Positions 1 to 17,077 of a DNA stretch of 64,000 nucleotides are shown piece after piece. This stretch comes from Streptomyces phaeolivaceus. GTDB lineage: Bacteria > Actinomycetota > Actinomycetes > Streptomycetales > Streptomycetaceae. Made by a program: the position numbers and the translations under genes. The notes below the pieces were generated by a model. That model ran no database searches. It saw only the letters and a program-made list of their open reading frames with translations, and was not told where the DNA came from. The stretch covers positions 5,518,001-5,582,000 of the forward strand of contig NZ_CP045096.1 of NCBI RefSeq assembly GCF_009184865.1. Direction: 5' to 3'. Numbering within the stretch: the stretch's first letter is position 1; each line of letters starts with the position of its first letter.

Positions 1-37
1 GGCCATCAGCTGGACGCCCCGTCAGGTCGGCCCGTCA

Positions 38-154: not shown

Positions 155-200
155 GGCGGCATACCTCCGGGCAGTGGCGACGGGCACAAGGCCCCTGCAC

Positions 201-241
201 GCCGACCAGACTTCCCGGCACACCCCACGTCCCTTGACGTG
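201..241 (-). promoter_or_regulatory. Conserved leader element, copy 1 (hairpin + 24-nt box)
   Basis: On the minus strand, positions 224-201 hold a box beginning GGTGTGCCGGGAAGTC, identical over 24 nt to three other copies in this window. One nucleotide upstream is a 6-bp hairpin (CACGTC, loop AAGG, GACGTG; 241-226). It is preceded by GTGCAAAGTA, close to GTGTAAAGAA in copy 2. Compared with copy 2 the stem keeps pairing through a compensatory A-U to G-C change, which points to an RNA structure. The downstream gene is missing or degenerate. Confidence 0.7.
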
Positions 242-623
242 TACTTTGCACTCTATCTGCTGCCGGCGCTCCCAAACAGCCCTGCACGGAACGGTGTGGG
301 CCGTGGCCCCGCATACCCGCTCACCCCCGGCCTGGTCCGCCTGGCGATCATGCGCGACGCCCGCCGACGCAGTGGCGATCGCGGCAAAAGCCGCTACCCG
401 CGGCGACTCCCTCCCGCCCAGACGCTTCTGCGGCCATGACTCCCTCCTCCACGAGGCGAGAGGTACACCGGTTGCGTGTCGGCGGCGCGGCAGCGGACTG
501 CACAGCGGTCGGCCCGGTACGCGTCTGATGCTCCGCTTGCCGACCCCCGGCCGCGCTCCAGCTGGGTCGATACGGCCGACTCCGGCCGAAGCACGCCATG
601 GAGCGGCTGTGCCGACGAGTGCG
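242..623. other. No convincing gene
   Basis: Open frames here have poor codon bias and no recognisable domain. The stretch separates the end of the leftward SulP gene from leader copy 1. I see no strong terminator, repeat or RNA gene in it. Confidence 0.5.
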
Positions 624-2129
624 TCAATGGCTGGCTGACAGCTCGCCGCTGAGCTTGCCGTGCAGGTGGGCGCTGGGTTCGTTCAGGCCGGTGATCTCGA
701 CCTGCTTGCCGCGCTGGGCGTACTTGGCCTCGATGGCGTCCAGGGCGGCGACCGAGGAGGCGTCCCAGACGTGGGCCGAGGACAGGTCGATGACGACCCT
801 CTTCGGGTCTGTGGCGTAGTTGAACTGGCCGACGAGGTCGTTGGAGGAGGCGAAGAACAGCTCGCCGGTGACCCGGTAGACGACCGCGCTGCCGTCCGGG
901 TCGATGACGGAGGTGACCTCGGCGAGATGCGCGACGCGCTTGGCGAAGACGACCATGGCGGTGACCGAGCCGACCACGACGCCGATGGCGAGGTTGTGGG
1001 TGGCGACCACGCACGCGACGGTGATCACCATGACGGTGATCTCCCCGGCCGGCATCCGGCGAAGCGTCTTCGGGGCGATGGAGTGCCAGTCGAACGTTGC
1101 GAACGACACCATGACCATGACCGCGACCAGGGCGGCCATGGGGATGTCCGAGACGACCGGGCCGAAGACGACGCACAGCACCATCAGGAACGCCCCGGCC
1201 AGGAACGTGGACAGGCGGGTGCGGGCGCCGGACACCTTCACGTTGATCATCGTCTGGCCGATCATCGCGCAGCCGCCCATACCACCGAAGAAGCCGGTGA
1301 CGATGTTGGCGATGCCCTGGCCGATCGACTCGCGCGTCTTGCTGGAGTGGGTGTCGGTGATGTCGTCGACCAGTTTGGCCGTCATCAGCGACTCCATCAG
1401 GCCGACCAGCGCCATCGCGAAGGCGTACGGGGCGATGGTGGTCAGCGTGTCCAGGGTGAAGGGCACGTCGGGCAGGCCAGGGACCGGCAGGGAGGACGGC
1501 AGGGCGCCCTTGTCGCCGACGGTCGGCACCGCGATGGCCGCGCCGACGGTGATCACGGTCAGGATGACGATGGAGACCAGTGGTGCCGGGATGACCGTGG
1601 TGACCTTCGGAAAGAACACCATCAGTGCCAGGCCGGCCGCGATCAGCGGGTAGACCGGCCACGGCACGCTCGTCATCTCCGGGACCTGGGCCATGAAGAT
1701 CAGGATGGCGAGGGAGTTGACGAACCCGACCATCACGCTGCGGGGGATGAACCGCATCAGTTTGGCCACCCCGAGTGCCCCGAGGATCACCTGGAAGACC
1801 CCGGCGAGGATGACCGCGGCGACGAGGTAGCCCAGGCCGTGCTCGCGGTTCAGAGGTGCGATCACGAGGGCGACGGCGCCGGTGGCGGCGGAGATCATGG
1901 CCCGGCGCCCGCCGACGACGGCGATGGTGACGGCCATGGTGAAGGAGGCGAACAGGCCGATGGCCGGGTCGACACCGGCGATGATGGAAAAGGAGATCGC
2001 CTCGGGGATCAGCGCGAGCGCGACCACCAGGCCGGCCAGTACCTCGGTACGCCAGACCTTCGGATCACGCAGCCAGTCCGGTTTGAGAGCGCTCAGCCGC
2101 GCGGCGGGAGACAGTACGGGAGAAGACAA
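624..2129 (-). CDS. SulP family inorganic anion transporter with C-terminal STAS domain
   Basis: 501 aa. The first 390 residues are a multi-helix SulP permease core; a family-typical segment near residues 38-60 reads VALALIPEAISFSIIAGVDP. Residues about 405-495 form a cytoplasmic STAS domain with a VVIDLSSAHVWDASSV core. SulP proteins move sulfate, bicarbonate or related anions across the membrane, often by Na+- or H+-coupled transport; the substrate here cannot be read from sequence. The start is a TTG with only a weak AGG upstream. The gene diverges from the MerR regulator at 2570, and the MerR-type operator between them could control both. Confidence 0.9.
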   Translation of the reverse strand: MSSPVLSPAARLSALKPDWLRDPKVWRTEVLAGLVVALALIPEAISFSIIAGVDPAIGLFASFTMAVTIAVVGGRRAMISAATGAVALVIAPLNREHGLGYLVAAVILAGVFQVILGALGVAKLMRFIPRSVMVGFVNSLAILIFMAQVPEMTSVPWPVYPLIAAGLALMVFFPKVTTVIPAPLVSIVILTVITVGAAIAVPTVGDKGALPSSLPVPGLPDVPFTLDTLTTIAPYAFAMALVGLMESLMTAKLVDDITDTHSSKTRESIGQGIANIVTGFFGGMGGCAMIGQTMINVKVSGARTRLSTFLAGAFLMVLCVVFGPVVSDIPMAALVAVMVMVSFATFDWHSIAPKTLRRMPAGEITVMVITVACVVATHNLAIGVVVGSVTAMVVFAKRVAHLAEVTSVIDPDGSAVVYRVTGELFFASSNDLVGQFNYATDPKRVVIDLSSAHVWDASSVAALDAIEAKYAQRGKQVEITGLNEPSAHLHGKLSGELSASH

Positions 2130-2472
2130 CGAAGCAGCTACCTGTCGTGCTCGGGCACACCCCTGGGGCAGGAAGGGGCGCGCAGAAGACGGCGAGGAAG
2201 GCCGGGGCCGGCATTCCGCGGCGGCCCGCTTTCGGGCCGGAAGTCGGGGAGAGCCGACGGCGCGATCGCGTGTGCGTCAGGCTCTGGTCAGGGGCGAAGG
2301 GTCACGGCGGACAGGCGGCGGCGCCAGGCACCACGGACTCGCGCACGCGTCTCTCCTGCAAGACTCGGATTCTTCGCCGGGGGCGGCATCGGCCCCGACA
2401 CGGAGACGGCCGGGCTGGGAACCCACACCGCAGACGAGGAAGTGACGGCGCTCAGGCCGACCCTCCGACGAG

Positions 2473-2496
2473 ACTCTACCCTAACGTTAGAGTAGA
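2473..2496. promoter_or_regulatory. MerR-type palindromic operator
   Basis: A 24-bp dyad centred on TAACGTTA, with arms CTCTACCC and GAGTAGAG, has a single mismatched pair. Long dyads of this kind sit in the 19-20 bp spacer of MerR-regulated promoters, and this one is 74 bp upstream of the merR-like start. It is probably the regulator's own operator and may also act on the divergent SulP gene. Confidence 0.7.
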
Positions 2497-2569
2497 GATC
2501 GGCGGCTGGATGGGACGCAGCGCTGTCGACAACGAGAAAGGCCAGGTCGGGGACGTGGACGGCAAGCAC

Positions 2570-2971
2570 ATGCAGATCGGTGAGGTCGCCGCGCGAACCG
2601 AGCTGTCCCTGCGCACCATCCGGCACTACGAGGAGACCGGCCTCGTCGCCCCCTCGGCCCGCTCCCAGGGCGGCTTCCGTCTCTACACCGAGGCCGACGT
2701 CGCCCGCCTGATGGTCATCCGCCGCATGAAGCCCCTCGGCTTCACCCTCGACGAGATGCGTGCCTTGCTGGAGGCCACCGACCGCCTCGACTCCGTCAAG
2801 GAACTGCCGCCCAAAGAGCGCGAAGAGCTCCTGGACCGGCTGCGGGGCTTCGAAGAGGCCGCGCAACAGCGCGTGGCCGATCTGCGCACCCAGCTGGCCC
2901 GGGCGGAGGAGTTCGCGGCCACACTGCGCCGGCGCCTCCCGCGGACCGCCGCGCCGGTTCGGACCCCGTAA
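2570..2971 (+). CDS. MerR family transcriptional regulator
   Basis: 133 aa from the chosen ATG. The N-terminal winged helix begins MQIGEVAARTELSLRTIRHY, and residues 5-70 carry the usual MerR HTH and wing. A dimerisation coiled coil follows (about 75-125). No cysteine effector motif is visible, so it is not an obvious metal sensor. An in-frame ATG at 2510 and GTG at 2555 are alternative starts; 2570 was chosen because it begins exactly where the family begins, although no strong ribosome site precedes it. The dyad at 2473-2496 suggests autoregulation. Confidence 0.85.
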   Translation: MQIGEVAARTELSLRTIRHYEETGLVAPSARSQGGFRLYTEADVARLMVIRRMKPLGFTLDEMRALLEATDRLDSVKELPPKEREELLDRLRGFEEAAQQRVADLRTQLARAEEFAATLRRRLPRTAAPVRTP

Positions 2972-3431
2972 CCGATCGGAACGAGCAGGGCTCGGCTATC
3001 ACCCCCACCACTCGCCATCCTTGTCATCAGTTCGTCGGCCCGCCCCCACGGAACGTGGTCGAGAAGCTGGACGAGCTTGGCTCACAGGATGGAGATGGCC
3101 GTTCGGCGGACCGTCGGCCCACCCGGACACCGGTGCCCAGACCCGTGGCTGAGGACTGGGCAGCCGGGCCGCCACCGGATCCGCCACGTTCAGCGCACGG
3201 TCTCGCTGAACGTGAGAACACACGGAACGGCAAAGGAGCCAGGTCCGCTGCGGCCATCGCTGATGGCTCAGCAGCTGCGGCAGCTCCAGCCGCTCCGGGG
3301 CGCCGTCCGTCTGCGGATCATAAGATGAGCCTCACAATCCGGATCTGATCTGATCTGAGCGCTCGTCAGGGCGGCCCCCGCACGAGAGCCACAGCAGCCA
3401 ACGCTCACGCCGACAGAGGAGGGGGACAGCC
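2972..3431. other. Intergenic region, no gene seen
   Basis: Frames here lack protein-like composition. The right end holds a strong Shine-Dalgarno stretch (AGAGGAGGGGGA near 3415) for the gene at 3432. The promoter of that operon probably lies in the AT-richer part around 3320-3360, where GATCTGATCTGATC is a short direct repeat. Confidence 0.45.
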
Positions 3432-3917
3432 ATGGGCGCGCCCCGCCTGAGCAGCACACCGTTGCCGGGAATCGGTGTCCGCTACGACCTGACAACACGG
3501 GAGCACCGCCGTCTCTCCGTGATCGCCCATCGGGACGGGCCGCGCACGATCAGTGCGTACCGGGAGGACGACCCCGACGCGTGCGCCATGTCCGTACGGC
3601 TGACCGCCGAGGAGGCGGCCACCCTCATCGACGCGTTGATGCCCGCCCACCACAACCCCAACCTGCTGTCCACCACCGGCCTGGGGCTCGTGGCCGAACG
3701 CATCGAACTGACCGCCGCATCGCGCTGGAACGGGCGCCTGCTGGGCGAGACCCGGATGCGCACGGAGACCGGCGCCTCGATCGTGGCCGTGCTGCGCCGA
3801 GCCGAGGCCATTCCCTCCCCCACCCCCGACTTCCGGCTCGCCGGCGGTGACACCCTCATCGTCATCGGCACCCGCGAGGGCGTGGAGACCGCCGCCGCGA
3901 TACTCGGGCGGGAGTAA
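3432..3917 (+). CDS. RCK_C (TrkA-C) regulatory subunit of cation:proton antiporter (CpeA/KhtT-like)
   Basis: 161 aa. The N-terminal 85 residues are the KhtT-type N domain and residues about 95-160 form an RCK_C fold ending in the typical DTLIVIGTREGVETAAAIL. Proteins of this kind gate a partner antiporter. In Bacillus KhtT and Streptomyces CpeA the RCK_C domain binds c-di-AMP. The ATG is preceded by a strong ribosome site. The antiporter gene starts 6 nt after the stop, so the two are an operon and very likely a complex. Assignment to the c-di-AMP-binding group is inference from architecture and context. Confidence 0.85.
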   Translation: MGAPRLSSTPLPGIGVRYDLTTREHRRLSVIAHRDGPRTISAYREDDPDACAMSVRLTAEEAATLIDALMPAHHNPNLLSTTGLGLVAERIELTAASRWNGRLLGETRMRTETGASIVAVLRRAEAIPSPTPDFRLAGGDTLIVIGTREGVETAAAILGRE

Positions 3918-3923
3918 CCCGTC

Positions 3924-5177
3924 ATGCACTCCTCCGCAGTCTTCCTGATCGAGTTCGGCTGCATCATCCTGGTTCTCGGGCTGCTCGGCCGGTTCGCCGG
4001 GCGCTTCCGGTTCTCCCCGATTCCGCTGTACCTGCTGGCCGGACTCGCCTTCGGCAACGGTGGGCTGCTGCCGCTGGGTTCCAGCGAGGAGTTCGTGGCC
4101 ATAGGCGCCGAGATCGGCGTCATCCTGCTGCTGCTCATGCTGGGCCTGGAGTACACCGCCAGCGACCTGGTCACCAACCTCAAGACCCACTACCCCGCCG
4201 GTCTCGTCGACGCCCTGCTCAACGCCCTGCCCGGCGCGGCACTCGCGCTGCTGCTGGGGTGGGGCCCGGTCGCCGCCGTCGTCCTGGCCGGCGTCACCTG
4301 GGTCTCCTCCTCCGGTGTCATCGCCAAGGTCCTCGGCGACCTGGGCCGCCTGGGCAACCGCGAAACCCCGACCGTCCTGAGCATCCTCGTCCTCGAAGAC
4401 CTCTCCATGGCGGTCTACCTGCCGATCCTCACGGCCCTGCTGGCCGGGACCGGCCTGGCGTCAGGCAGCGTCACCCTCGCCATCGCCCTCGGCGCAGCCG
4501 CCCTCGTCCTGGTCCTCGCGGTCCGCTACGGCCGCCACATCTCCCGCTTCGTCTCCAGCGACGACCCCGAGAAACTCCTCCTCGTGGTCCTGGGCCTGAC
4601 CCTGCTGATCGCCGGGCTCGCCCAGCAGCTGCATGTGTCCGCCGCCGTGGGTGCCTTCCTCGTCGGTATCGCGCTGTCCGGCGAGGTCGCCGACGGCGCG
4701 CACAGCCTTCTTGCCCCGTTGCGGGACCTGTTCGCCGCCGTGTTCTTCGTCTTCTTCGGCCTGAACACCGACCCCGCCAGCATCCCTCCCGTCCTCCTGT
4801 CCGCCCTCGCCCTGGCCGCCGTCACCGCCTGCACGAAGATCGCCACCGGCTACTGGGCTGCCAAGCGGGCCGGCATCGCCGCCAAGGGCCGCTGGCGAGC
4901 CGGCGGCGCCCTCGTCGCGCGCGGCGAGTTCTCCATCGTGATCGCCGGACTCGCCGTCGCAGCCGGCGTCGAACCCTCTCTCGGCCCGCTGGCCACGGCC
5001 TACGTCCTGATCCTCGTCCTCCTCGGACCCCTCACCGCCCGCTACACCGAACCACTGGCCACACGCCTGCTCAGGCATCGCCGCGCACAGCTCGCCGCGA
5101 AACCCGACGACACCACACCACTGACAGCGAGCGCGCACGAGACCATCAGCGATCAAGATGCCGTCGGACACGCGTGA
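3924..5177 (+). CDS. Kef-type (CPA2) cation:proton antiporter, CpeB/KhtU-like
   Basis: 417 aa with about 12 hydrophobic segments and no C-terminal TrkA-N domain; the regulatory domain is supplied in trans by the preceding gene. LEDLSMAVYLPIL near residue 155 and RGEFSIVIAGLAV near residue 335 are typical CPA2 signatures. It should exchange K+ or Na+ for protons and so help set turgor and cytoplasmic pH. Translation is probably coupled to the upstream gene (6-nt gap). It converges on nhaA, whose end is 74 nt away. Confidence 0.9.
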   Translation: MHSSAVFLIEFGCIILVLGLLGRFAGRFRFSPIPLYLLAGLAFGNGGLLPLGSSEEFVAIGAEIGVILLLLMLGLEYTASDLVTNLKTHYPAGLVDALLNALPGAALALLLGWGPVAAVVLAGVTWVSSSGVIAKVLGDLGRLGNRETPTVLSILVLEDLSMAVYLPILTALLAGTGLASGSVTLAIALGAAALVLVLAVRYGRHISRFVSSDDPEKLLLVVLGLTLLIAGLAQQLHVSAAVGAFLVGIALSGEVADGAHSLLAPLRDLFAAVFFVFFGLNTDPASIPPVLLSALALAAVTACTKIATGYWAAKRAGIAAKGRWRAGGALVARGEFSIVIAGLAVAAGVEPSLGPLATAYVLILVLLGPLTARYTEPLATRLLRHRRAQLAAKPDDTTPLTASAHETISDQDAVGHA

Positions 5178-5251
5178 TCCGGTCGGGGCGGTGCGGTCGA
5201 CAGCGCGATGGGATGGCTCGGTGGTGTCGGCGAGTGAGAGGTAGGCACCGT

Positions 5252-6568
<1,317 letters not shown>

Positions 6569-6617
6569 CCGGGAGAACCTCCACAGCATCGGAGTGTGGG
6601 CACACGCGCCCTGCGAC

Positions 6618-6658
6618 GCCGACCAGACTTCCCGGCACACCGCGCGTCGATTGACGCG
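6618..6658 (-). promoter_or_regulatory. Conserved leader element, copy 2, upstream of nhaA
   Basis: The 24-nt box (6641-6618 on the minus strand) is identical to copies 1, 3 and 4. A hairpin CGCGTC-AATC-GACGCG (6658-6643) ends 1 nt upstream of it, the same geometry as copy 1 with a compensatory base pair. The upstream GTGTAAAGAA also matches copy 1. The box ends 49 nt before the nhaA ATG. Confidence 0.75.
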
Positions 6659-6793
6659 TTCTTTACACACTAACCGGGGCCGCCACGTGTATGCGCCCTG
6701 GGCGCGACGGCCTACAGAGACCTGCTGTGATGGTCGTCACGGCAGCGGAACGGAGATCGCTGCCCCGCAGCGTGCGGCGAGCAGAGCCATGGC

Positions 6794-7876: not shown

Positions 7877-7958
7877 GTGGGTCCCCCCGACGTTTGATGC
7901 GTTGTTGACGTCTTTCTAGCGCATGGCCGCGAACATCACCCGGTACGAGTCAGGTCAT

Positions 7959-7973
7959 TGCCTGTCTCCGGCA
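7959..7973 (-). promoter_or_regulatory. TGCC-N7-GGCA dyad, copy A (PucR gene)
   Basis: On the coding strand the site reads TGCCGGAGACAGGCA, preceded by AAAAAG. It matches three other 15-bp sites at 10586, 13949 and 25009. Position relative to the PucR start codon is -97 to -83. Confidence 0.6.
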
Positions 7974-8056
7974 CTTTTTGCAGGTGGGGACATGCCGACT
8001 ACGGGCAAGGTGTCACTGCCGTACGGAGGGGCAGGGACGCCGTCTGGTCAGCGCAT

Positions 8057-8129
8057 GGAGCAACGTAACGGGCGGGCGATGGTCATCCCCCGTACGCTGC
8101 TCCTAGGTGTGCCGGGAAGTCTGGTCGGC
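8057..8129 (+). promoter_or_regulatory. Conserved leader element, copy 3, upstream of STAS gene
   Basis: The 24-nt box is at 8106-8129, 28 nt before the ATG at 8158. Upstream is a long imperfect hairpin. GGAGCA (8057-8062) pairs with TGCTCC (8098-8103), and the inner CGTA and CGGG arms pair with CCCG and TACG. It ends 2 nt before the box. The hairpin sequence differs completely from other copies, but its position is the same. Confidence 0.7.
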
Positions 8130-8157
8130 GGACACATCCGTCTGCCCGGAGGCTCTG

Positions 8158-8496
8158 ATGCCCCTCTTCCGCCACCGCCGCCGCCCCGCTTCGGTCCCAC
8201 CATCGGGCCTTGAGGTGGTCCGACTGCGCGGCGACCTCGACGCCCGCAGTGCTGCGCGGACGGGCCGGCGCCTCCTGCGGGTGATCGAAACAGGACCGGA
8301 TGTCCTGGAGGTGGACCTCACCGAGTTGCACCACCTCAGCCCGGCCGGCTGCGCGGCGTTCTTTGCCGCCGTCCGAGCCGCGCGGGCACGCGGCACACGG
8401 CTGATCATCACGCATCCCAGCGACCAGGCGCGGACAGCCATGCGGCAGATCGGCCTGACCTACGTCCTGACGCACTGGGAAACGGGAACCCGCTGA
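8158..8496 (+). CDS. STAS domain protein (anti-sigma factor antagonist-like)
   Basis: 112 aa. The STAS fold covers residues 20-108, with VLEVDLTELHHLSPAGCAAF carrying the serine position used for phosphorylation in SpoIIAA-type antagonists. The ATG at 8158 has a GGAGG ribosome site; the upstream extension only translates the leader. Such proteins release sigma factors by binding anti-sigma kinases. The neighbouring antiporters and second STAS gene suggest a stress-sigma circuit, but no partner kinase lies next to it. Confidence 0.8.
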   Translation: MPLFRHRRRPASVPPSGLEVVRLRGDLDARSAARTGRRLLRVIETGPDVLEVDLTELHHLSPAGCAAFFAAVRAARARGTRLIITHPSDQARTAMRQIGLTYVLTHWETGTR

Positions 8497-8583
8497 AGCG
8501 TGTCCCGTGCAGCGCACCATGCCGGATCGCGGCAAGGTCGGACGGCCGTCAGTGCGCGGAAAGAGCCTGTCAGCACGACGTAA

Positions 8584-8628
8584 GGAACGTGTAGGGTTCC
8601 CCGCGGTGTGCCGGGAAGTCTGGTCGGC
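8584..8628 (+). promoter_or_regulatory. Conserved leader element, copy 4, upstream of CPA1 antiporter
   Basis: The box at 8605-8628 is identical to copies 1-3. A hairpin GGAAC-7 nt-GTTCC (8584-8600) ends 4 nt upstream. The box lies 41 nt before the ATG at 8670 of a Na+/H+ antiporter. Confidence 0.72.
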
Positions 8629-8669
8629 GGTTGTGGGAGAACTCTCTTCGCCGATCGGGGGTCGTGGTC

Positions 8670-9911
8670 ATGCTGCTCGTCGTGGTCTTCGGGGTGGCCC
8701 TGCTCATCGCGGTGCTGCTGTCAGGTCTCGCGGCCCGGACCGTGCTGTCGACCTCGCTTCTCTTCCTGGTCGGCGGCGCGCTCGTCAGCGACGGTTTCCT
8801 GGGCTGGATCCACATCACTCCGGACAGCGAGATCGTGTCCGTGACGGCCGATCTGGCGCTGTTCGCGGTGCTGTTCACCGACGGCATGCACGTCTCCTTC
8901 CCCAAGCTGCGCGAGAACTGGCGCAACCCGGCCCGCGCTCTCGGCCTCGGCATGCCCCTGGCGTTCGTCGGCATGGCGCTGATCACGCACTACCTGGTGG
9001 GCCTGGACTGGACGACGTCCTTCCTCGTCGGTGCCGTGCTGGCGCCCACGGACCCGGTGTTCGCCTCCGCGATCGTCGGCCGCAAGGAAGTCCCCTCCAA
9101 GCTGCGGCAGTTGCTGAACGTCGAGAGCGGCATCAACGACGGCCTCGCCCTGCCCGTCGTGCTCATCCTGATCGCCGCGGCCGGACCGACCTCCGGGCAG
9201 GCTGAAGCGTCCTTGGGGACGATCGCGCTGGAGCTTGTCCTGGGACTGGTCTTCGGTGTCGTCCTGCCGTTCGTGGTGATCGAGCTCGTACGCTTCCGGC
9301 TGCTGGGCGCCGAGCCGAAGCTTCAGCCGCTGCTCCCGCTGGCGATCGGCGTGATCCTGTACGCGCTCTGCCACCTCACGCACGCCAACCCCTATCTCGC
9401 CGCGTTCGCCGCGGGTGCCGTGCTCACCGCCCGGTCGCTGGAGGCGAAGGAGGCGTTCGAGCCGCTCGGGGAGGCGCTGGCGGAGCTGGCCAAGTTCGCG
9501 GCCCTGCTGGTGTTCGGCGCACTGCTGACGCCGTCGCTCTTCGGTGACCTGTCCTTCGGCGGGTACGTCGCCGTGGTCCTCGCCATCGTGCTGATCCGGC
9601 CGGCCTCCCTGCTGCTCTCCCTGCTCGGTACCCGTTTCACCCGCCAGGAGAAGCTGGTCGCGGCCTGGTTCGGGCCGAAGGGCTTCGCGTCCGTGGTGTA
9701 CGGGCTGCTCGTACTGCAGGCCGGTATCCCGCAGGGCGAGGAGGCGTTCACCCTCATCGCCCTGTGCATCGCCTTCTCGATCGTCGCGCACAGCTCCACC
9801 GACGTGCCGATCGCCCGTCTCTTCCACGTTGACGACCTCGCCGGAATCCCGGCCGGACGCAAGGACGCCGACACGCCGTCCAAGGAGACCACCGCAGATG
9901 CGCGCGCGTGA
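8670..9911 (+). CDS. CPA1 family Na+/H+ (cation:proton) antiporter
   Basis: 413 aa from the ATG at 8670, which has GGGGG 9 nt upstream. A TTG start at 8631 would give a longer protein but has no ribosome site and abuts the leader box. There are about 12 membrane helices. Signature segments are GAVLAPTDPVFASAIVG near residue 130 and LLNVESGINDGLALPVVL near residue 160, the conserved aspartate core of NhaP/CPA1 exchangers. It would extrude Na+ or K+ against protons. A short charged C-terminal tail replaces the long regulatory tail of some relatives. Confidence 0.9.
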   Translation: MLLVVVFGVALLIAVLLSGLAARTVLSTSLLFLVGGALVSDGFLGWIHITPDSEIVSVTADLALFAVLFTDGMHVSFPKLRENWRNPARALGLGMPLAFVGMALITHYLVGLDWTTSFLVGAVLAPTDPVFASAIVGRKEVPSKLRQLLNVESGINDGLALPVVLILIAAAGPTSGQAEASLGTIALELVLGLVFGVVLPFVVIELVRFRLLGAEPKLQPLLPLAIGVILYALCHLTHANPYLAAFAAGAVLTARSLEAKEAFEPLGEALAELAKFAALLVFGALLTPSLFGDLSFGGYVAVVLAIVLIRPASLLLSLLGTRFTRQEKLVAAWFGPKGFASVVYGLLVLQAGIPQGEEAFTLIALCIAFSIVAHSSTDVPIARLFHVDDLAGIPAGRKDADTPSKETTADARA

Positions 9912-10072
9912 ACGCGGTCGTGTCGGCCACTCGTGGAGCCGCCGTACCGGGAGTTGGGGCGCGGACCGGCGCTGAAGGAGCCGGGAGACCCGGCACGGAG
10001 GCGTCACGGGTGTGACGCCGGAGCCTGACCAGACCTGCTCACCCGGCGGAGACAGCAGGAGGTCCACTCTCG

Positions 10073-10486
10073 ATGACCGGATTCTGGAACGCCGACGCCC
10101 CTGACGGTCAGCCGGTACGACTGACCTACGTCTCCACCGCTGCTCCGGGTGGTACGGCCGAGTTCATCCTGCGCGATCCGTGCGGCCGTGTCATCGGCCG
10201 ACTTCGTTTCCGTGCCTGCCATGAGTGCCGTACTGGGCGCATCCTGGACCTCTGGGTCTGCGATATGTGGCAACGGCAGGGACTGGGGCGCGGACTCGTG
10301 CGTTCCCTGTTCGCCCACCGTCGCGGCTACCGGTGGAACACCACCCTGCAGAGCCGCCCGGGGCGGGCCTTCTTCGCGGCGATGACACGGGAAACCACAC
10401 TGAGCCTGCCCCACGGCGGCCCGCTCTGTCCCCACCTCATGGGATGGCTCCGGCGTACCTGGCGCCGCCTGCTGCACGCCTACTGA
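10073..10486 (+). CDS. GNAT-like acetyltransferase
   Basis: 137 aa. The segment ILDLWVCDMWQRQGLGRGLV carries the acetyl-CoA-binding Q/R-x-x-G-x-G/A motif (RQGLGRG) of GNAT enzymes. The C-terminal part is shorter and less typical than most members, so the protein may be a divergent or minimal version. The ATG has a strong AGGAGG ribosome site. The substrate is unknown and neighbours give no direct clue. Confidence 0.7.
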   Translation: MTGFWNADAPDGQPVRLTYVSTAAPGGTAEFILRDPCGRVIGRLRFRACHECRTGRILDLWVCDMWQRQGLGRGLVRSLFAHRRGYRWNTTLQSRPGRAFFAAMTRETTLSLPHGGPLCPHLMGWLRRTWRRLLHAY

Positions 10487-10585
10487 AAGGGCGTCTCAGC
10501 GCAGCCGGGGGCACGTCATCACGTCTCGTGGCCGAGACGTCGGCCAATTCCTGACAGCAACCGGCAGGCGGACCGTAGTGAACAC

Positions 10586-10600
10586 TGCCGGAACCTGGCA
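10586..10600 (+). promoter_or_regulatory. TGCC-N7-GGCA dyad, copy B (Rv1733c-like gene)
   Basis: Reads TGCCGGAACCTGGCA, extended by CAC and GTG into a longer palindrome. It lies 121-135 bp before the ATG at 10721. It differs by one base from copy C at 13949-13963 read on its coding strand. Confidence 0.6.
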
Positions 10601-10720
10601 GTGCAACCGGTATGGCTGTGCGTGCACCATGAAGGATGGGGAGATGGGCTGGGCAGCGGGCCCTTCTTGCCCCAGCAGGCTGGAAGCAAGTTGCCGGTGC
10701 TCACGAAGGGGTGTCGGCCG

Positions 10721-11302
10721 ATGGCGACGGCGCGGTGTGCCAGGGTGTGGTGGTGGCGGTGGCGGCATAATCCGCTGCTGCGGCGCAGCGACGTCATCGA
10801 AGCCTGGGTCATCCTCGCTGGATGGGTGCTGGCCCTGGTGGGCGGTCTGTTCGTGGGGCTGGCGGCGGCAGACGCGGTCGAGCGGTCCGCGGACCGGCAG
10901 CGGGTGGAGCGCCGCACGGTGTCGGCTGTACTCGTCGAGGACGCCAAGGGCAAGGTGCCCGCCAGGGCAGCGGGCGATCCGCGGGTGTGGGCGACGGTCC
11001 GCTGGACCGCGCCGGACGGTTCGACACGCACCGGCGAGGCCCGGGTGTCGGCCACGAGCCCCGTCGGCAACCGGGTCACGATCTGGATCGACAAGGACGG
11101 TCACCTCACTGCGGAGCCCCTGACCGAAGGGCAGGCACGATCCCATGCGGCTGCCGCAGGGTTGCTGGTCGCGGCAGGTGCGGGCGGCATCGCCCTGGCC
11201 GCGGTCTCCGTTATACGCATGTACCTGAGCCAGCGGCGTTTGGAGCAGTGGGCCGTGGAGTGGGAGCGGATCGACACGCGGTGGGGGAGGAAGGCCGGCT
11301 GA
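10721..11302 (+). CDS. Rv1733c family membrane protein
   Basis: 193 aa from the ATG at 10721 (AAGGGG 10 nt upstream). The layout is the family's: an Arg/Trp-rich start (RVWWWRWRHNPLLRRSDVIE), a first membrane helix (about 30-50), an extracytoplasmic beta-rich domain with WATVRWTAPDGSTRTGEARV, and a second helix (about 145-168) followed by a short basic tail. In Mycobacterium tuberculosis Rv1733c belongs to the DosR dormancy regulon; the biochemical role is unknown. The upstream dyad places it in the same candidate regulon as the flotillin operons. Confidence 0.85.
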   Translation: MATARCARVWWWRWRHNPLLRRSDVIEAWVILAGWVLALVGGLFVGLAAADAVERSADRQRVERRTVSAVLVEDAKGKVPARAAGDPRVWATVRWTAPDGSTRTGEARVSATSPVGNRVTIWIDKDGHLTAEPLTEGQARSHAAAAGLLVAAGAGGIALAAVSVIRMYLSQRRLEQWAVEWERIDTRWGRKAG

Positions 11303-11384
11303 CCGGGCCAGTTGATCAGCGAGACCCAGGGGCGACGAAGGCCGACTCCCATCCGGTCGGAAAGGATCAAGGGCCAGGGCCCCA

Positions 11385-11738
11385 TCACGGCCGACCGCTG
11401 ATGCCCTGTGCCTGATCGACAGTCTGTGCTCGCATTGCTCGCCGGTAGAACCGCTCGCCCAGCTGCGATCCGGCCACGAGCCCTCCAGCGAACATCAGCA
11501 GCCCACCCTGCACCACGGAAGCGAAAAAACTGGCGTCCTCGGTGTCCAGATCGCTCCACCGCAGGAGCGGGCCGGTCAGCCCGCCGAGCCAGATCACCAG
11601 CAGGGCGACGCCCCGGACGCGGATGGCCCACGGGGTCGTACGGCTGCGGGTGCGTTTCGGCGCCCACCCTCGCAGCGAGGCGATGGCCACGGGCAGCGCG
11701 AAGGCCGACCAGCCGACCAGCCAGAACCACAGCAACAC
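11385..11738 (-). CDS. Small membrane protein of unknown family
   Basis: 117 aa with three hydrophobic segments (about 1-20, 42-58, 70-90). The GTG start has an excellent GAGGAGG ribosome site at 8 nt. It follows the flotillin gene by 75 nt with a strong hairpin between, so it may be a partially attenuated third gene of the NfeD-flotillin operon. I do not recognise the family. Confidence 0.65.
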   Translation of the reverse strand: MLLWFWLVGWSAFALPVAIASLRGWAPKRTRSRTTPWAIRVRGVALLVIWLGGLTGPLLRWSDLDTEDASFFASVVQGGLLMFAGGLVAGSQLGERFYRRAMRAQTVDQAQGISGRP

Positions 11739-11758
11739 CCCTCGTACCTCCTCGCGTA

Positions 11759-11792
11759 CGAGCCCGGGCGGTTCCAGGACCGCCCGGGCTCG
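11759..11792. terminator. GC-rich hairpin after flotillin gene
   Basis: A perfect 14-bp stem (CGAGCCCGGGCGGT with its complement, loop of 6) lies between the flotillin stop and the next start on the minus strand. There is no U tract, as is common in Streptomyces terminators. It could terminate or attenuate transcription into the small membrane gene. Confidence 0.6.
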
Positions 11793-11813
11793 CTTCTCCG
11801 GTCGATGCCGGCG

Positions 11814-13247
11814 TCAGCCGGTGATCTCGACCTTCCCGTTGGCCCCGGCGGGTGCTGTCGTCGCGGGCTGCGCGCCGCCGACCCGGCCGGTGATGCCCTT
11901 CAGCAGCTCGGCGAGGTCGACTCCGGTGGTGGAACCGAGCAGTTCCAGGCCCTGTGCGACGTTGTCGGCGACCGTGCGCGAGAGCTGACTGGCGCCGTCG
12001 GTGGAGATGACCGTCATCTTGTCGATCGCGCTGAGCGGCTCGGACGCCTTGGCGACGACCTGCGGCAGCACCTCCACCAGCATCTGCAGGACAGCTGCGT
12101 CGCCGTACTGGGCGAAGGCGTCGGCCTTCTTCTGCATGGCGTCAGCCTCGGCGGCGCCCTTGGCGCCGATGGCGGCGGCCTCCGCCTCACCCTCGAGGCG
12201 GACGGCGTCGGCGAGCGCGGCGCGCTGCGCCTTCTCACCCTCACCGGTCAGCCTCGCCCGCTCGGCGGTTGCCTCGGCCTCCTTGACCAGCGCGATACGG
12301 CGGGCCTCGGCCTCCTGCTCGGCCTGGTAGCGGGCGGCGTCGGCGGGCTTGCGGACCTTGGTGTCCAGCTCCCGGTCGGTCAGCGCGGCCTGGCGTTCGG
12401 CGACCTTCTCCTGCTCGCTGAGCACTTCCTGCTGCCGGGCTGCCTCGGCGAGCGGTCCGGCCGCGGCGGCGCGGGCTGCGGCCTCGTCGGTCTCGGCCTT
12501 GATCTCGGCCTGCTTCAGCGCGAAGGTCCGCTGGGCGATGGCGATTTCCTCCTCGGCCTTCAGCCGGGCCTGCTCGGCGGCGCGCCGGGCGACGGCCTCG
12601 GCGATGTCGGCCTCCTGCTTGGCGCGGGCGGCCTCGGGGCGGCCGAGGTCCTCCAGGTAGGAGCCCTCGGTGGTGATGTCCTGGATCTGGAAGGCGTCCA
12701 GCACCAGGCCCTGCCCGGAGAGGCTGGCCTCGGCCTCCTCGGCGACCTGACTGGCGAAGGCGGCCCGGTCACGAATGATGTCCTCCACGGACATCCGGCC
12801 GACGATCGCGCGCAGTGCGCCGGAGAGAACTTCCTGGGTGAAGCCGACGATGCCGTCCTGCTGCATCAGGAACCGCTGGGCCGCAGCGCGGATCGAGTCC
12901 TCGGTGCCGCCGACCTTGACGATGGCGACGCCTTCGAGGTTCGCCTTGACACCGCGCAAGGTGACCGCGCCGCGTACCGCGATGGGGATGTGCCGCGAGG
13001 ACAGGTCCAGGGTGAACTTCTGCTGCACGAACGGCACGACGAACACCCCGCCGCCGACCACGACCTTCTGCCCGCTGTTGTCGGTGAACACCCGCCCGGT
13101 CTCCGGGTCGGTGGCCTGCTTGCCGCGCCGGCCGGTGACGATGAACGCCTCACTCGGACCCGCCACCTTGTAGCGGGTGACCACGACGAGGCCGAGCAGG
13201 ACAAGGAGTACGACGACTCCTATCACGGCGAAGACGACTGGACTCAT
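11814..13247 (-). CDS. Flotillin-like SPFH (band 7) protein
   Basis: 477 aa from the ATG at 13247 (GGGGAAAG ribosome site). It has one N-terminal membrane helix (2-24), an SPFH domain (about 30-200), then a long Ala/Glu/Lys/Arg-rich coiled coil (about 205-390) and a Gly/Ala-rich C-terminal flotillin domain. This matches FloT in order and length. Flotillins scaffold membrane microdomains and affect membrane fluidity and signalling. The NfeD-like gene immediately upstream is the usual partner, as in Bacillus yuaF-floT. Confidence 0.9.
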   Translation of the reverse strand: MSPVVFAVIGVVVLLVLLGLVVVTRYKVAGPSEAFIVTGRRGKQATDPETGRVFTDNSGQKVVVGGGVFVVPFVQQKFTLDLSSRHIPIAVRGAVTLRGVKANLEGVAIVKVGGTEDSIRAAAQRFLMQQDGIVGFTQEVLSGALRAIVGRMSVEDIIRDRAAFASQVAEEAEASLSGQGLVLDAFQIQDITTEGSYLEDLGRPEAARAKQEADIAEAVARRAAEQARLKAEEEIAIAQRTFALKQAEIKAETDEAAARAAAAGPLAEAARQQEVLSEQEKVAERQAALTDRELDTKVRKPADAARYQAEQEAEARRIALVKEAEATAERARLTGEGEKAQRAALADAVRLEGEAEAAAIGAKGAAEADAMQKKADAFAQYGDAAVLQMLVEVLPQVVAKASEPLSAIDKMTVISTDGASQLSRTVADNVAQGLELLGSTTGVDLAELLKGITGRVGGAQPATTAPAGANGKVEITG

Positions 13248-13356
13248 GATGTCTTTCCCCTCAGCCCTCCCAGGGGACGGCAGATCGATACGGTTCAAGT
13301 GGATGAAAGGGCGGGGCCGGTGCAACGGCGCCCGATGTGAAGAACGGGGCCGCGGG

Positions 13357-13872
13357 TCAGCGTTCCACCGGGCGTACGGAGACCGCTGTCTGCGACAGCG
13401 CCTCCTCCACCCAGATCTCGGCGCCTCGCGGCACCGGGCTCGGACTCTTCGCCGCGAGCTTGACCGGTTGTCCGGCCAGGTGGACCAGCACCTCGCCGTA
13501 GCCGCCGACCGGAATGGCCGTCACCACGGAACCCGCGGCGCCGATCAGATCGTCGCCGCGCGGGGCAGCGCTTGACCGGTCGTTCAACAGGGCCCGGCTG
13601 AGGTGGTAGGCGAGCCAGCCCGTGGCAGCTCCTGCGGGCACGCCGACCGCGGTGGCGCCCACCGCGCCGAGCCCGGTGGTGCCCAGGACGATCGCTCCGG
13701 AGAAGCCGAGCATGGACACGAACCCGGCGATGACCGGAAGCGACAGCCACCCGTCGAAAAGGCCGTCGAGCGCGTCGACGCCGCCGAAGAGGCCCTCAAG
13801 GACACCGTCGAAGACGAGGGACAGAGCGAGGAGTACGACTCCTGCGATGCCGAGACCCAGAAACCAGGTCAT
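13357..13872 (-). CDS. NfeD-like membrane protein (YuaF type), flotillin partner
   Basis: 171 aa. Helices lie at about 3-22, 45-65 and 70-92. The C-terminal 70 residues form the NfeD OB-fold (DLIGAAGSVVTAIPVGGYGE and a following LVHLAGQPVKLAAKS strand pair). The gene starts the operon and is followed after 109 nt by the flotillin gene. NfeD proteins sit in the membrane with flotillins. The dyad at 13949-13963, 77-91 bp upstream, is the candidate operator. Confidence 0.85.
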   Translation of the reverse strand: MTWFLGLGIAGVVLLALSLVFDGVLEGLFGGVDALDGLFDGWLSLPVIAGFVSMLGFSGAIVLGTTGLGAVGATAVGVPAGAATGWLAYHLSRALLNDRSSAAPRGDDLIGAAGSVVTAIPVGGYGEVLVHLAGQPVKLAAKSPSPVPRGAEIWVEEALSQTAVSVRPVER

Positions 13873-13948
13873 CCGCGTTCACCGCCCCTCTCCCACAGTC
13901 ACCCCGCTGGTGACCGCCATACTCACACGTAGATCCCGCCGAAAACAC

Positions 13949-13963
13949 TGCCTGGTTCCGGCA
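13949..13963 (-). promoter_or_regulatory. TGCC-N7-GGCA dyad, copy C (NfeD-flotillin operon)
   Basis: On the coding strand reads TGCCGGAACCAGGCA, preceded by GTAAAGAT. Copy D at 25009 shares the preceding GTGAAGAT, so conservation extends beyond the dyad. It is 77-91 bp before the NfeD start. Confidence 0.65.
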
Positions 13964-14144
13964 ATCTTTACGCTCTCTTGATGGCGTCCTCCCCGCAGCC
14001 TGGCCGGAGTGCGGTGGGAACCTGGCCGACGGCAGTTCCGAAGGACAGCCGTGTCCAGACCAGTTGCTCGCGTACTACCGCCCCTGTTCAGCCGAGCAGC
14101 CGAGAGCCGCGCCGATCGGGTCGGGAAGCGCCACGGAGCCAGGT

Positions 14145-16088
14145 CTACGGCATGGCGGGGTCGGCCGGCCTGGGATGGCGGCCGAGGAGTTCGGCGAGTC
14201 CCTGCCGGGTCGTCGCCAGCACGACCCGGTCCTCGGGGCGCAGGACGTATCCGGGGTGCAGTTCCCAGAGCAGCCCGGGGGGCCGGTCGTCGCCATCGGC
14301 CGGATGGGCCGCGGCGAGATCGGGGCGCCGGTCGGCTGGCGCGGCGGCGTCCAGGGCCAGAACGCGCCAGGACCCGGGGCGGAAGGCTTCGGCGACCGTG
14401 CGGCCCTCCAGTTGCGGGTGACCTGCGACGACGAGGGCCGCGACGAGGAGGACCTTGCGTTCGACGGGGATCGCACCGAGGATCTGGCGGCCCATCATCG
14501 CGCCGGCGAACGCGGGGGCCGCAAGGCTGGAGACGCTGCGGCTGCGGGTGAGGGCCTGCGGGTGGGCGGCTCGCAGGGTGCGGTAGACGGCGGTGGCGAA
14601 GTCGTCGTCGTACAGCCGCAGCGCGACACGCAGGTCGGGCTTGACGGAGCGTGCGTACAGGGCGGCTTCGAGGTTGGTGGTGTCGGAGCTGGTCAGGGCG
14701 AGCAGGGCGTGCGCGCGGTGGATCTTGGCGGACTCCAGGACGCCCTCCTCGGTGACGTCCCCGATGACGGTGGGGATGCGCAGACGACGGGCCAGAGGGA
14801 TGCCTCGCGCCCCGGGGTCCGACTCCACACAGACCACGGGGATGTCGAGCTCCTTCAGCCGGGCCAGCACGCGGGTCCCGATCTTGCCGAGGCCGAGGAG
14901 GACGACATGCCCGGACAGGCCGCGCGGAGGACGGCGCAGGGCGGAAGCGCTGCGGAATGTGCCCAGGCCCTCCAGCACGGCCGCCGTCATCACCGGCAGC
15001 AGCAGCAACCCGGCCAGCCCGGAGAGGAGTTGCATGATCTGACGGCTCAGCGGCTCGCCGAGCGCCGGGTCGTCGATGGCGAACAGGTCGAGCAGAGTGA
15101 GGTACGTGGCGTGCACCAGGCTGTCGTCGGTGGTCAGCCAGGAGGCGACGGCGAGGCCGAAGACGCGCGAGCAGGCCGAACAACGACCAGCGCAGCCGAC
15201 GCGAGAACAATTGCCCGAGCGAGCCTCGGTTGGCCAGCCGCCCACTGGGCAGGAGCGGCCCGCTGTACGAGACGGCCTCCAGTACCACCGTGCCGTGTCC
15301 GGTCGCAGCGGTCACCGCCTCCTCGCTGGGCAGGAGTCGGGGCGCCTCCGCCCCGCTGCGGTCCGAACCCTCGGCCCCGCAGGATCGTTCGCCGTCGCCG
15401 ACAGCAGTGCCAGCGTGCACAGGCCAGGGTCGAAAGCTTCACCGCGACGCGGCGGGGTGCGTTCGACCGCTCGCAGCAGCAGCCCATCCGCCTGAACCAC
15501 CTTGCTGGTGCCCGCGACGGCCGTGGCGGCCAGCGCCGGAGCGGCGGTGTCCGCGTCGGACAGGACGGTCGTGGAGGTGTCCAGAGCCACCGGGTCCAGC
15601 CCCGGTGAGGCGACTACGGCGGCTTGGTCCAGCAACTCCTCCAACTGCTGGCCGAGCTTGCGGTTGTACAGCCGGATCACCAGCCGCACCTGCGGGTTGA
15701 GGCGCCGGGCGATCAACGCGGCGCGGATGTTCACCTCGTCGTCCTCATGCACCAGGGCGACCGCCGTGGCCCGAGCCACACCGGCCGCGGCCAACACCTC
15801 GTCGGTGAGCTCCGACGCCTCCAGCACATGCCCGTTGTCGGCGGCGTCCGGTGCGCTGCCCGCGGCCCTCGTCATCACCGAGGACACCCGTCCGAAGAGT
15901 GCCGTCGCCCGGTCCCGGCCGGTGGGCGACGTGCCCGGCGTGACACCGCCCTGGGCGGGAGCGACGAGCGTGACCTGCTCGCGGTAGACGTCGCGCAGTT
16001 CGTCGGACAGCCGGTGAGCCAGCCCGTCATCACCACAGACGATCATGTGCCCGCTGCGGGGAGGCATCTGGCGCGGGAGGGAAGACAT
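14145..16088 (-). pseudogene. Two-RCK ion channel/NAD-binding protein, broken by two compensating frameshifts
   Basis: An intact gene would encode about 645 aa: TrkA-N domain 1 (MIVCGDDGLAHRLSDELRDV), a two-helix pore region (LTLLDLFAIDDPALG near the filter position, then LLSGLAGLLLLPVMTAAVL), and TrkA-N domain 2 (GHVVLLGLGKIGTRVLARLK) with a C-terminal RCK_C. The first part (16088 to about 15380) and last part (about 15170 to 14145) share a frame, but roughly 200 nt between them are coding in another frame. In the first frame a stop occurs at 15312. A one-base loss in a G-run near 15375-15380 and a one-base gain near 15165-15172 would explain it. It is either a real lesion or two sequencing errors. 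Confidence 0.75.
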
Positions 16089-16353
16089 GGAAGATCACTT
16101 TGCCGCAGTTCGGCAGCTGCTTCCATGCCTACGGAACAGATGCCGCAGGTGGGGGCTGCGAGGCGGAGAGTGGATCGCCAGTTCCGCATGACGGCTCTGC
16201 CTCCGCGCAGCGGGTGGTGCGGCGGACCGCTGTCTCGGCCCGAACGGCTGCGCGGCTTCGCACACCGACGCCTGCGGCGCATCAGCCCGAGCCGCCGTTG
16301 AGCCCCGGTAACGGCAACCCCTACCGAAAAGCCGACCGCAAAGACGCGGCAGC

Positions 16354-16701
16354 TCAGACACCGAAACCGGTTTCCGCATCGACGACGGTGTCATGTACCC
16401 GAAGGACCTGATCAGCCCCCGTCATCTGAAGGACCCGCTGCAGGGAATCGGGGACACTCGCCAGTACGAGCACGGCGCCGCTCGCCGCCGCCTGCCGCCA
16501 CGCTCCAAGCAGCACACTCAGTCCGGCCGAGTCGCAGAACGAGACGTCCGACAGGTCCAGGACGATGAAGCGATCGCCCCGCCCCAACAGCTCCCTGAAC
16601 TGTGCGCGGAACACCAAGTCGGTCCCATAGTCCATGTCGCCGCTGACCCTCGCTACCAGGCAGCGACCCGAGGTGGTCATCTCGACCGAAGGGTCAGTCA
16701 C
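16354..16701 (-). CDS. STAS domain anti-sigma factor antagonist
   Basis: 115 aa, typical SpoIIAA/RsbV length. The phosphoacceptor motif is DLSDVSFCDSAGLSVLLGA near residues 50-67, with the expected serine in DSAG. The GTG start has AGGAGAG at 5 nt. It should bind a serine kinase/anti-sigma factor when unphosphorylated and free a sigma factor. No kinase gene is adjacent. Confidence 0.88.
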   Translation of the reverse strand: MTDPSVEMTTSGRCLVARVSGDMDYGTDLVFRAQFRELLGRGDRFIVLDLSDVSFCDSAGLSVLLGAWRQAAASGAVLVLASVPDSLQRVLQMTGADQVLRVHDTVVDAETGFGV

Positions 16702-16812
16702 AAGCGCTCTCCTAGCCGTTTTGGTAGGGAGAAGACGGCGGAATCGTGAGGGGAGCCCATACTTCGCGGCTGAGGTAAACAGCGACTTCCGCGGGCATCG
16801 CCGCAGGATGTG

Positions 16813-17004
16813 TCACGGACCGCCTCGATTCCACCGGCCGGTCAGCAGCGCGATCCCAGCCGCCGCCAGGCTCAGGATGCCGAACAGCAGAACCGGAAGT
16901 CCGGGCCCCGGCAGCACCCACATCACCGCACCGCAGAGAGTGAGCAACGCGCCGACGACCGTGAGCACACCTACGAGGGCGCGCCCCGTGAAGGGTCTGG
17001 ACAT
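16813..17004 (-). CDS. Small two-helix membrane protein with PGPG motif
   Basis: 63 aa: helix 1 about 9-30, turn VLPGPGLPVLL, helix 2 about 34-55. This resembles the short actinobacterial PGPGW-type transmembrane proteins. The ATG has GGAG at 8 nt. The gene is preceded by leader copy 5, whose box ends 30 nt before the start codon. That is the best evidence that it is a real, regulated gene. Function unknown. Confidence 0.65.
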   Translation of the reverse strand: MSRPFTGRALVGVLTVVGALLTLCGAVMWVLPGPGLPVLLFGILSLAAAGIALLTGRWNRGGP

Positions 17005-17034
17005 GTGGCGGCTCCAGGGAAGGGGGCAGTCAAT

Positions 17035-17077
17035 GCCGACCAGGCTTCCCGGCTCACCTGTGGCGCATTATAGCCAC
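17035..17077 (-). promoter_or_regulatory. Conserved leader element, copy 5 (variant), upstream of small membrane gene
   Basis: The box at 17058-17035 differs from the other four at two positions (GGTGAGCC, GAAGCC) and keeps the rest. A hairpin GTGGC-8 nt-GCCAC (17077-17060) ends 1 nt upstream, the same spacing as copies 1 and 2. The hairpin loop contains TATAAT, so part of it might instead be promoter sequence; the other copies argue for an RNA element. Confidence 0.65.

Follow-up and report, generated by a model that had tools for sequence, protein, structure and literature searches.

Within 64,000 nucleotides (nt) of the Streptomyces phaeolivaceus genome (contig NZ_CP045096.1, positions 5,518,001 to 5,582,000; hereafter the window), a short and nearly invariant box recurs in front of ion-transport and stress genes. 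What is this box: an operator in DNA, the start of a leader peptide or part of an RNA, and, if it is an RNA, what does it respond to? An earlier note on this DNA had taken it for a cis-regulatory RNA standing before ion-transport genes. The present analysis supports that view well, through covariation, the placement of the element at gene starts and the predominance of Na+/H+ antiporters behind it. As judged from sequence comparison, the element is a phylum-wide cis-regulatory RNA with strong structural support. The best-supported reading is a new class of translational riboswitch for Na+ or Li+, to which we assign a probability of roughly 0.6.

The hairpin P1, the adjoining wobble pair and the promoter

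A letter search with a 20-mer recovered the box at all five places given in the earlier note, four of them exact and the fifth with two changes. None of 100 shuffles reached five matches (mean 0.01); the G+C content of the window is 70%. In the whole host genome of 10.18 Mb, seven matches were found with up to three mismatches allowed, one of them with three. Six of the seven look real, namely the five window copies and a sixth at 5785171-5785190, which precedes the second of the two nhaA genes of the host.

The consensus of the element is 25 nt long, GGWGN-GCCG-GGAAGYCUGGU-CGGC-R, and comprises a conserved 5' GG-G, a hairpin of four base pairs (GCCG/CGGC, hereafter P1) and a near-invariant 11-nt loop. 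In 164 instances picked by the exact box pattern, the invariance within positions 1-19 is by design, while positions -5, -4, -2, -1 and 20 were free. Positions -5, -4 and -2 were G in all of them, position -3 was T in 80% and A in 12%, and position -1 was mostly T, C or A. GGTG is thus the commonest 5' end, and the T at -3 would suit a conserved leader peptide that begins at this GTG and controls the gene by translation. The A, C or G found at -3 in the other 20% removes the GTG, however, so that the peptide fails as a general rule. The compensatory stem changes described below also alter codons on both sides, and T, C and A all occur at -1. We consider a leader peptide hardly credible.

The earlier note had described the box as a fixed single-stranded segment, and covariation of its pairs showed that the box is itself the hairpin. 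Among the listed matches with up to two mismatches in genomes of the class, seven carried a compatible change of both letters in one P1 pair, and one genome (G227) carried two stem changes incompatible with pairing. In an alignment of 54 distinct forms (A1), double changes were found in three of the four P1 pairs, 99.1% of the cells paired, and the covariation score was reached by none of 500 shuffles. Since these forms were drawn from matches already required to pair at three of the four places, a pairing-blind search provides the cleaner test. In this search of 296 genomes, the stem was left free and the 5' side was non-canonical at pair 1 or pair 2. It gave 25 distinct places, ten of which keep all four P1 pairs through a double change. 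A -10 hexamer in phase was present at all ten of these and at none of the remaining 15, and none of the ten in-phase matches showed a one-sided stem change. Six of the ten were UCCG/CGGA, all in one family (f6), and four were GUCG/CGAC in four families, the second pair having changed from C-G to U-A in f30, f33, f18 and f24. Covariation in a larger alignment, on which the earlier note had made its reading depend, was therefore found both in A1 and in the pairing-blind search. A covarying structured RNA is present in the 5' leader.

Two recurrent variants of the conserved parts were also observed. In four loci (L196, L202 and L206 of family f22, and L197), U12 of the loop is replaced by G, the rest being intact and a -10-like hexamer being in phase; in L202 the sequence GCCGACCC, a complement of 8 nt without mismatch, lies downstream. 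A GGTAT 5' end, in which G-2 is replaced by A, was found in L195, L199 and L200 (family f18) and is the recurrent loss of G-2 among the instances collected. A two-layer G-quadruplex formed from the four GG runs was considered and rejected, being unfavoured in folding with G-quadruplexes allowed.

The strongest signal of the element is that of positions -1 and 20, next to P1. After four chance-looking matches had been dropped (L139, L193, L201 and the one at 222 in L218), a scan with 246 matches left 242 instances. U.G was found in 103 of them and C.A in 67, and Watson-Crick pairs were avoided: U-A occurred 16 times (54 expected) and C-G twice (37 expected). The remainder includes A-A (14), A-G (9) and U-C (9). 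Across 62 nearest pairs on the NhaA tree, both positions had changed in 19, only -1 in nine, only 20 in eight and neither in 26; ten of the 19 double changes were between U.G and C.A. Since the U.G and the protonated A.C wobble are isosteric, a wobble geometry beside P1 seems to be required. Position 20 showed no convincing link with downstream k-mers (lowest p 0.015 among many).

It is worth considering here that the RNA might be a physical sensor of pH, salt or temperature, with the balance between P1 and the sequestering helix described below shifting with pH or ionic strength. The C.A pair would be pH-sensitive if protonated, and NhaA and Mrp also respond to alkaline pH. The larger group, U.G, is not pH-sensitive, however, and both types occur before nhaA (U.G in 52 and C.A in 38 of 124). 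In addition, the near-invariant loop and the GG-G point to a specific pocket. A purely physical sensor is thus improbable.

The element is phased to the promoter. A TANNNT motif starts at -19, -18 or -17 in 163 of the 242 instances, against a background of 1.24 per position. Upstream column counts of the collected instances (164 and 242) showed this -10 hexamer as the conserved feature and no conserved upstream hairpin. Because the -10 hexamer is phased to the element, and on this phasing solely, the transcript is predicted to begin at or beside G(-5), so that the element should make up about nucleotides 1-25 of the mRNA. The earlier note had placed a hairpin upstream of every copy. Such a hairpin is present in copies 1 and 2, together with the compensatory A-U to G-C change noted between them; these two copies are of a minority type in which the -10 lies at a greater distance upstream and a 5' hairpin is added. 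In copies 3-5 a -10-like hexamer occupies the place of the supposed hairpin, which is therefore probably not transcribed there. We therefore rejected the upstream hairpin as a conserved part of the element: copies 1 and 2 carry it as an extension at the 5' end, and in copies 3-5 the corresponding DNA resembles a promoter.

The fixed spacing to the -10, together with the GCCG..CGGC inverted repeat, which stays symmetric under double changes, could also be expected of a DNA operator bound by a transcription factor over the transcription start. The pair -1/20 is anti-symmetric (U.G, C.A), however, which is the reverse of a palindrome, and symmetric half-sites were not found; the centre is asymmetric as well. 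One-sided arm changes were absent from the ten in-phase matches, two in the 3' arm being found elsewhere (L194 and L195). Different P1 arm types coexist within one genome (G092 and G141), and the downstream leaders are complementary to the box. These facts make an operator very improbable. Separately, a CTGAAA(C/G)TT(C/T)AG repeat lies directly before the -10 in five of the seven distinct UCCG/CGGA variants of family f6 (L264, L265, L266, L269 and L270; nearly so in L192, and not in L267). It is possible that this repeat is an operator of a second regulator.

Target genes and distribution

The genes behind 238 leaders were typed by similarity to Pfam-typed examples. NhaA accounted for 134 and other Na+/H+ exchangers for 28, together 162 of the 238. 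Further targets were ABC ATPases (12), CBS proteins (11), APC-type proteins (5), hydrolases (4) and PPDK-like proteins (3), and DUF2254, DUF6653, TrkH, TrkA_N, Na_Ca_ex, STAS, PP2C, SpoIIE and enzymes occurred once or twice. In all, 211 genes were placed and 27 were not, some of the latter being typed later. Deeper lineages added MrpA/NuoL-type subunits (L174, L214, L226, L260 and L262, the last two with an MbhD domain), CitMHS-type permeases, H_PPase, NfeD and further STAS and CBS proteins. An ion theme is therefore evident in NhaA, the exchangers, the Mrp-type subunits and H_PPase, with a minority that does not fit. The earlier note had held that boxes with no bias toward gene starts would speak against a leader element; the element proved to be tied to starts.

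In 61 relatives of the host, the element was found on 59 of 69 NhaA genes of ordinary span and on none of 16 of long span, a count that omits seven fragmentary NhaA matches and all two-mismatch boxes and takes a contig-edge NhaA (G032) as lacking the box. Long genes are those with a profile span of at least 1190 nt, their open frames having 633-731 amino acids (aa). Since none of them carries the element, they are probably regulated otherwise.

Some targets resemble genes of drug inactivation or export, namely PPDK/Rph-like proteins, an Rgt-like glycosyltransferase and DrrA-like ABC proteins. Four loci were scanned (L074, L141, L009 and L087), all matches being below the cut-off, and three others are similar (L098, L109 and L251). 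Because such targets occur, the rifamycin-associated element was considered. That element is a palindrome. It was rejected since it is unlike the box and the dominance of NhaA argues against it; no paper on it was found in the literature searched. At five loci (L056, L109, L204, L205 and L250), two elements about 120-330 nt apart point away from each other and serve two opposite genes.

With up to two mismatches, the 19-nt core was found in 58 of the 61 relatives and a reversed control pattern in 17; with no more than one mismatch, the core was found in 55, and 91 of 110 such matches were exact. The 24-nt form with up to two mismatches was present in 172 of 246 genomes of the class (reversed pattern, 17), and a covariance model found the element in 80 of 296 genomes of the phylum, the model R1 having been searched against Actinomycetota genomes. 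A scan of one genome per species gave at least 119 stretches. Among the matches listed, 79 of 80 titles were of Actinomycetota, and named carriers include Streptomyces and Mycobacterium. In a metagenome-assembled genome labelled Chloroflexi (L045), the element stands before an amino-acid-permease-like gene (weak Pfam match); either the element truly occurs beyond the phylum or the contig was mis-binned. Viral contigs gave no exact match and phages none. Thirty-six plasmid records carry the element; the organism names listed, for all but one record, are actinobacterial, and in three cases the gene behind it was an alpha/beta hydrolase, another alpha/beta hydrolase and none listed nearby. A phage or mobile origin was rejected on the strength of these viral and phage counts and of the actinobacterial plasmid records.

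Leader complementarity and the proposed switch

The leaders downstream of the box are enriched in its complements. CGACC was found in 62 of 194 such leaders against 50 of 420 leaders of other genes, GACCC in 43 against 16, and TGCCC in 42 against 19. The most over-represented complement was that of the box segment GGTCGG (22 of 143, with 3.7 expected by shuffling). The 242 leaders were reduced to 180 by start and Shine-Dalgarno calling and removal of redundancy, and were then folded. Box positions 13-18 paired downstream with a mean probability of 0.783, compared with 0.466 when the boxes were joined to leaders of other genes and 0.603 when the boxes were shuffled. Pairing of the Shine-Dalgarno with the box was 0.333, against 0.117 and 0.249 in the same two controls. 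The probability of P1 was 0.009 in own leaders and 0.089 with leaders of other genes. The Shine-Dalgarno is met mainly by box positions 10-12 and less by 2-3, and the stretch before it by 13-19. It is the downstream anti-box and Shine-Dalgarno segment that varies, rather than the upstream hairpin of the earlier note. No association was seen between the 5' GGW and complements of it further downstream in the leaders. A fixed hairpin at 20-45 was rejected as a general feature, its excess over shuffles being small (36% against 27%).

These results suggest that P1 and a sequestering fold compete. Since P1 is kept by covariation and the fold that destroys it by complementarity, both appear to be kept by evolution, which is what a switch needs. 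Set against two controls, the folding model thus predicts an expression platform whose pairing excludes that of the aptamer.

The following mechanism can be proposed for a riboswitch. The element would be the aptamer of a new, very small class in Actinomycetota, placed at the 5' end, or close to it, of mRNAs for sodium export and for related stress genes. By default, YCUGGUCGGC, which forms the 3' half of the element, would be paired to an anti-box directly preceding the Shine-Dalgarno, and to some extent to the Shine-Dalgarno as well, keeping translation low. Rising intracellular Na+ or Li+, the most likely ligand, would stabilise P1 and its outer U.G or C.A, the loop GGAAGYCUGGU and the 5' GGWG. 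Formation of P1 would remove its 3' strand from the sequestering helix and free ribosome binding, so that NhaA, Mrp, CPA antiporters and the like would be made. We infer in this scheme direct binding of the ligand, its identity as Na+ or Li+, the P1 state as ON and control at translation. A bolder form, which we put forward tentatively as a serious possibility, holds that a 25-nt aptamer, among the smallest, senses Na+ (or Li+) directly with a required U.G/A+.C pair and is a main sodium switch of the phylum.

Several observations weigh against a sodium riboswitch. Total Shine-Dalgarno pairing is slightly lower in real leaders (0.548) than in shuffled ones (0.605), and for copies 1 and 3 the pairing between box and Shine-Dalgarno is very weak (0.03 and 0.10). 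In four short leaders (L215, L223, L225 and L227), the nearest start lies 12-14 nt from the box, so that an expression platform would have hardly any space. The energy model does not favour the short P1 over other folds, and in L194 and L195 a change on one side breaks one P1 pair. Ordinary riboswitches need no fixed spacing to a -10. Among the targets, the 12 ABC ATPases (two scanned as DrrA-like, below the cut-off), the four hydrolases, the three PPDK-like genes and single glycosyl-, acyl- and methyltransferases do not point to sodium, and the drug-like minority does not fit a pure sodium regulon.

The main rival to a riboswitch is that the same RNA switch is read in trans, by an RNA-binding protein or a small RNA that binds the loop of the P1 hairpin and thereby opens or obstructs ribosome access. 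An element of 25 nt with a short stem and an invariant loop would also be typical of a protein site, and not all targets have to do with ions. A 5'-terminal position could be expected of a factor that acts by protecting or trapping the ends of mRNAs. Autoregulation would give a recurring nucleic-acid-binding target, however, and the 211 placed genes include none; the exceptions lie among the 27 others (a Crp-like gene in L220, and L231, alike by eye). A small RNA complementary over nearly the full box should show up as a geneless box on the opposite strand, and the seven matches in the own genome include none, leaving room for a short seed. We judge a switch read in trans to be unlikely.

At the gathering score, Rfam matched one tRNA only in the window, and no Rfam family overlapped the elements at E values up to 10, in line with the earlier note, which had recognised no known riboswitch class. 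The element was not found in open-licence papers searched with the box letters and the topics, and the available parts of PMC3765725 and PMC10117811 contain nothing on it. The element is undescribed in Rfam 15 and in the literature searched.

The Li+-I riboswitch (nhaA-I motif, RF03057) is like the element in preceding nhaA and other cation transporters, and it is supposed to control ribosome access (PMC9646797). Its consensus has 55 positions and two hairpins, unlike the 25-nt element with one, and the letters in common are UGGUCGG only. The RF03057 covariance model had no match in the own genome, a Caulobacter control being positive, and was found in two of 198 genomes of the phylum. On two loci that carry nhaA-I, the best R1 match scored 9.2 bits (E 0.48) and lay away from the nhaA-I site, real elements scoring about 35-44 bits; in L289, the nhaA-I site is overlapped by a second, insignificant match (8.8 bits, E 0.59). 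We take both the UGGUCGG likeness and this overlap as chance, although a distant tie to nhaA-I may exist.

The Na+-I riboswitch (DUF1646 motif, RF03071) controls antiporters, ATPases and osmotic genes as a sodium regulon and is reported from Firmicutes, Proteobacteria, Acidobacteria and Verrucomicrobia (PMC9337991). The element shares this sodium and osmotic theme, which makes Na+ or Li+ the natural first guess for its ligand. As described there, Na+-I differs in having two extended stems, and its model matched none of 198 genomes of the phylum, the own genome included (Lactococcus control positive). The dauA motif (SRC-36-1, Narunsky et al.), like copy 3, is an RNA found in Streptomyces ahead of a STAS gene; it is described as a three-stem junction with 57 examples, in Streptomyces only (PMC11109978), and may overlap copy 3. 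A resemblance to the core of the cobalamin riboswitch was considered and rejected, there being no Rfam match. The ligand and genes of the preQ1-I riboswitch are unrelated to those of the element. In the proposed masking of the Shine-Dalgarno the element is like preQ1-I, which buries Shine-Dalgarno nucleotides (PMC11625349).

The copies in the window and what the element may mean

The features of the window are collected in Table 1.

Table 1. Coordinates of the element copies, promoter-like hexamers, extra hairpins and genes in the window.
Feature	Position	Strand	Details
Copy 1, 25-nt element (-5..+20)	200..224	-	5' GGUGU 224-220; P1 219-216 / 204-201; loop 215-205; position 20 = 200; 20-mer 202-221, exact
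Copy 2, nhaA leader	6617..6641	-	P1 6636-6633 / 6621-6618; loop 6632-6622; 20-mer 6619-6638, exact
Copy 3, STAS gene leader	8106..8130	+	P1 8111-8114 / 8126-8129; loop 8115-8125; 20-mer 8109-8128, exact
Copy 4, CPA-type antiporter leader	8605..8629	+	P1 8610-8613 / 8625-8628; loop 8614-8624; 20-mer 8608-8627, exact
Copy 5 (GGUGA, Y10 = C)	17034..17058	-	P1 17053-17050 / 17038-17035; loop 17049-17039; 20-mer 17036-17055, two changes
-10-like TAGAGT, copy 1	250..255	-	18 nt upstream of common phase (5' extension)
-10-like TAGTGT, copy 2	6667..6672	-	
-10-like TACGCT, copy 3	8093..8098	+	common phase; predicted transcription start about 8105/8106
-10-like TAGGGT, copy 4	8592..8597	+	common phase
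-10-like TATAAT, copy 5	17067..17072	-	one base off commonest phase; inside apparent upstream hairpin
Extra 5' hairpin ACGTC-AAGG-GACGT, copy 1	227..240	-	not general
Extra 5' hairpin GCGTC-AATC-GACGC, copy 2	6644..6657	-	compensatory to copy 1; not general
nhaA reading frame	5252..6670	-	PF06965, E 3.9e-132; listed frame extends back through leader
STAS-domain protein	8158..8496	+	start 28 nt after copy 3; PF01740, E 9.1e-13
Na_H_Exchanger-family antiporter	8664..9911	+	E 1.2e-42; start GTG 8664 or ATG 8670
63-aa membrane protein	16813..17004	-	start 30 nt after copy 5; PGPGW-like, E 0.024, below family cut-off

From copies 1-5, the distances to the gene start were 46, 49, 28, 41 (35 with the GTG at 8664) and 30 nt, in agreement with the 28-49 nt of the earlier note. 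Its labels nhaA, STAS and CPA1 antiporter were borne out by Pfam matches (the STAS gene also scored E 1.4e-12 in the Pfam check of the window), and the start of nhaA is likely to be the ATG 49 nt after copy 2. Behind copy 5, the gene does encode a membrane protein, and its assignment as a PGPG protein is no more than suggestive.

Copy 1 is an orphan leader (window positions 1-224, L001) and adjoins a SulP/STAS transporter. Its leader is 82% identical to that of copy 2 over 67 nt, and copy 1 is likely to be a duplication remnant of the copy 2 leader. The sole notable match behind it was to NhaA (E 1.7e-4) and covers leader-derived residues and the first codons. The open reading frame starting at 154 on the minus strand, which the earlier note had called a remnant, may plausibly be the stump of an nhaA start, the similarity being partly to leader-derived residues. 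The arrangement of the window recurs elsewhere: nhaA and STAS leaders lie near each other in a Streptomyces contig (L066), and nhaA, STAS and antiporter leaders recur in another genome (G100), the STAS gene there (L246) having been checked with Pfam and the rest judged by eye.

Riboswitches for Na+ and Li+ are few, and Na+-I is absent from the 198 genomes of the phylum searched. If the proposed riboswitch is real, it would explain the control of sodium extrusion in a class where most sampled genomes carry the element, and a salt-stress regulon of Mrp, STAS, CBS, phosphatase and membrane-protein genes would become readable from genomes. The small size of the element would also make it a good subject for structural work on how RNA selects alkali ions.

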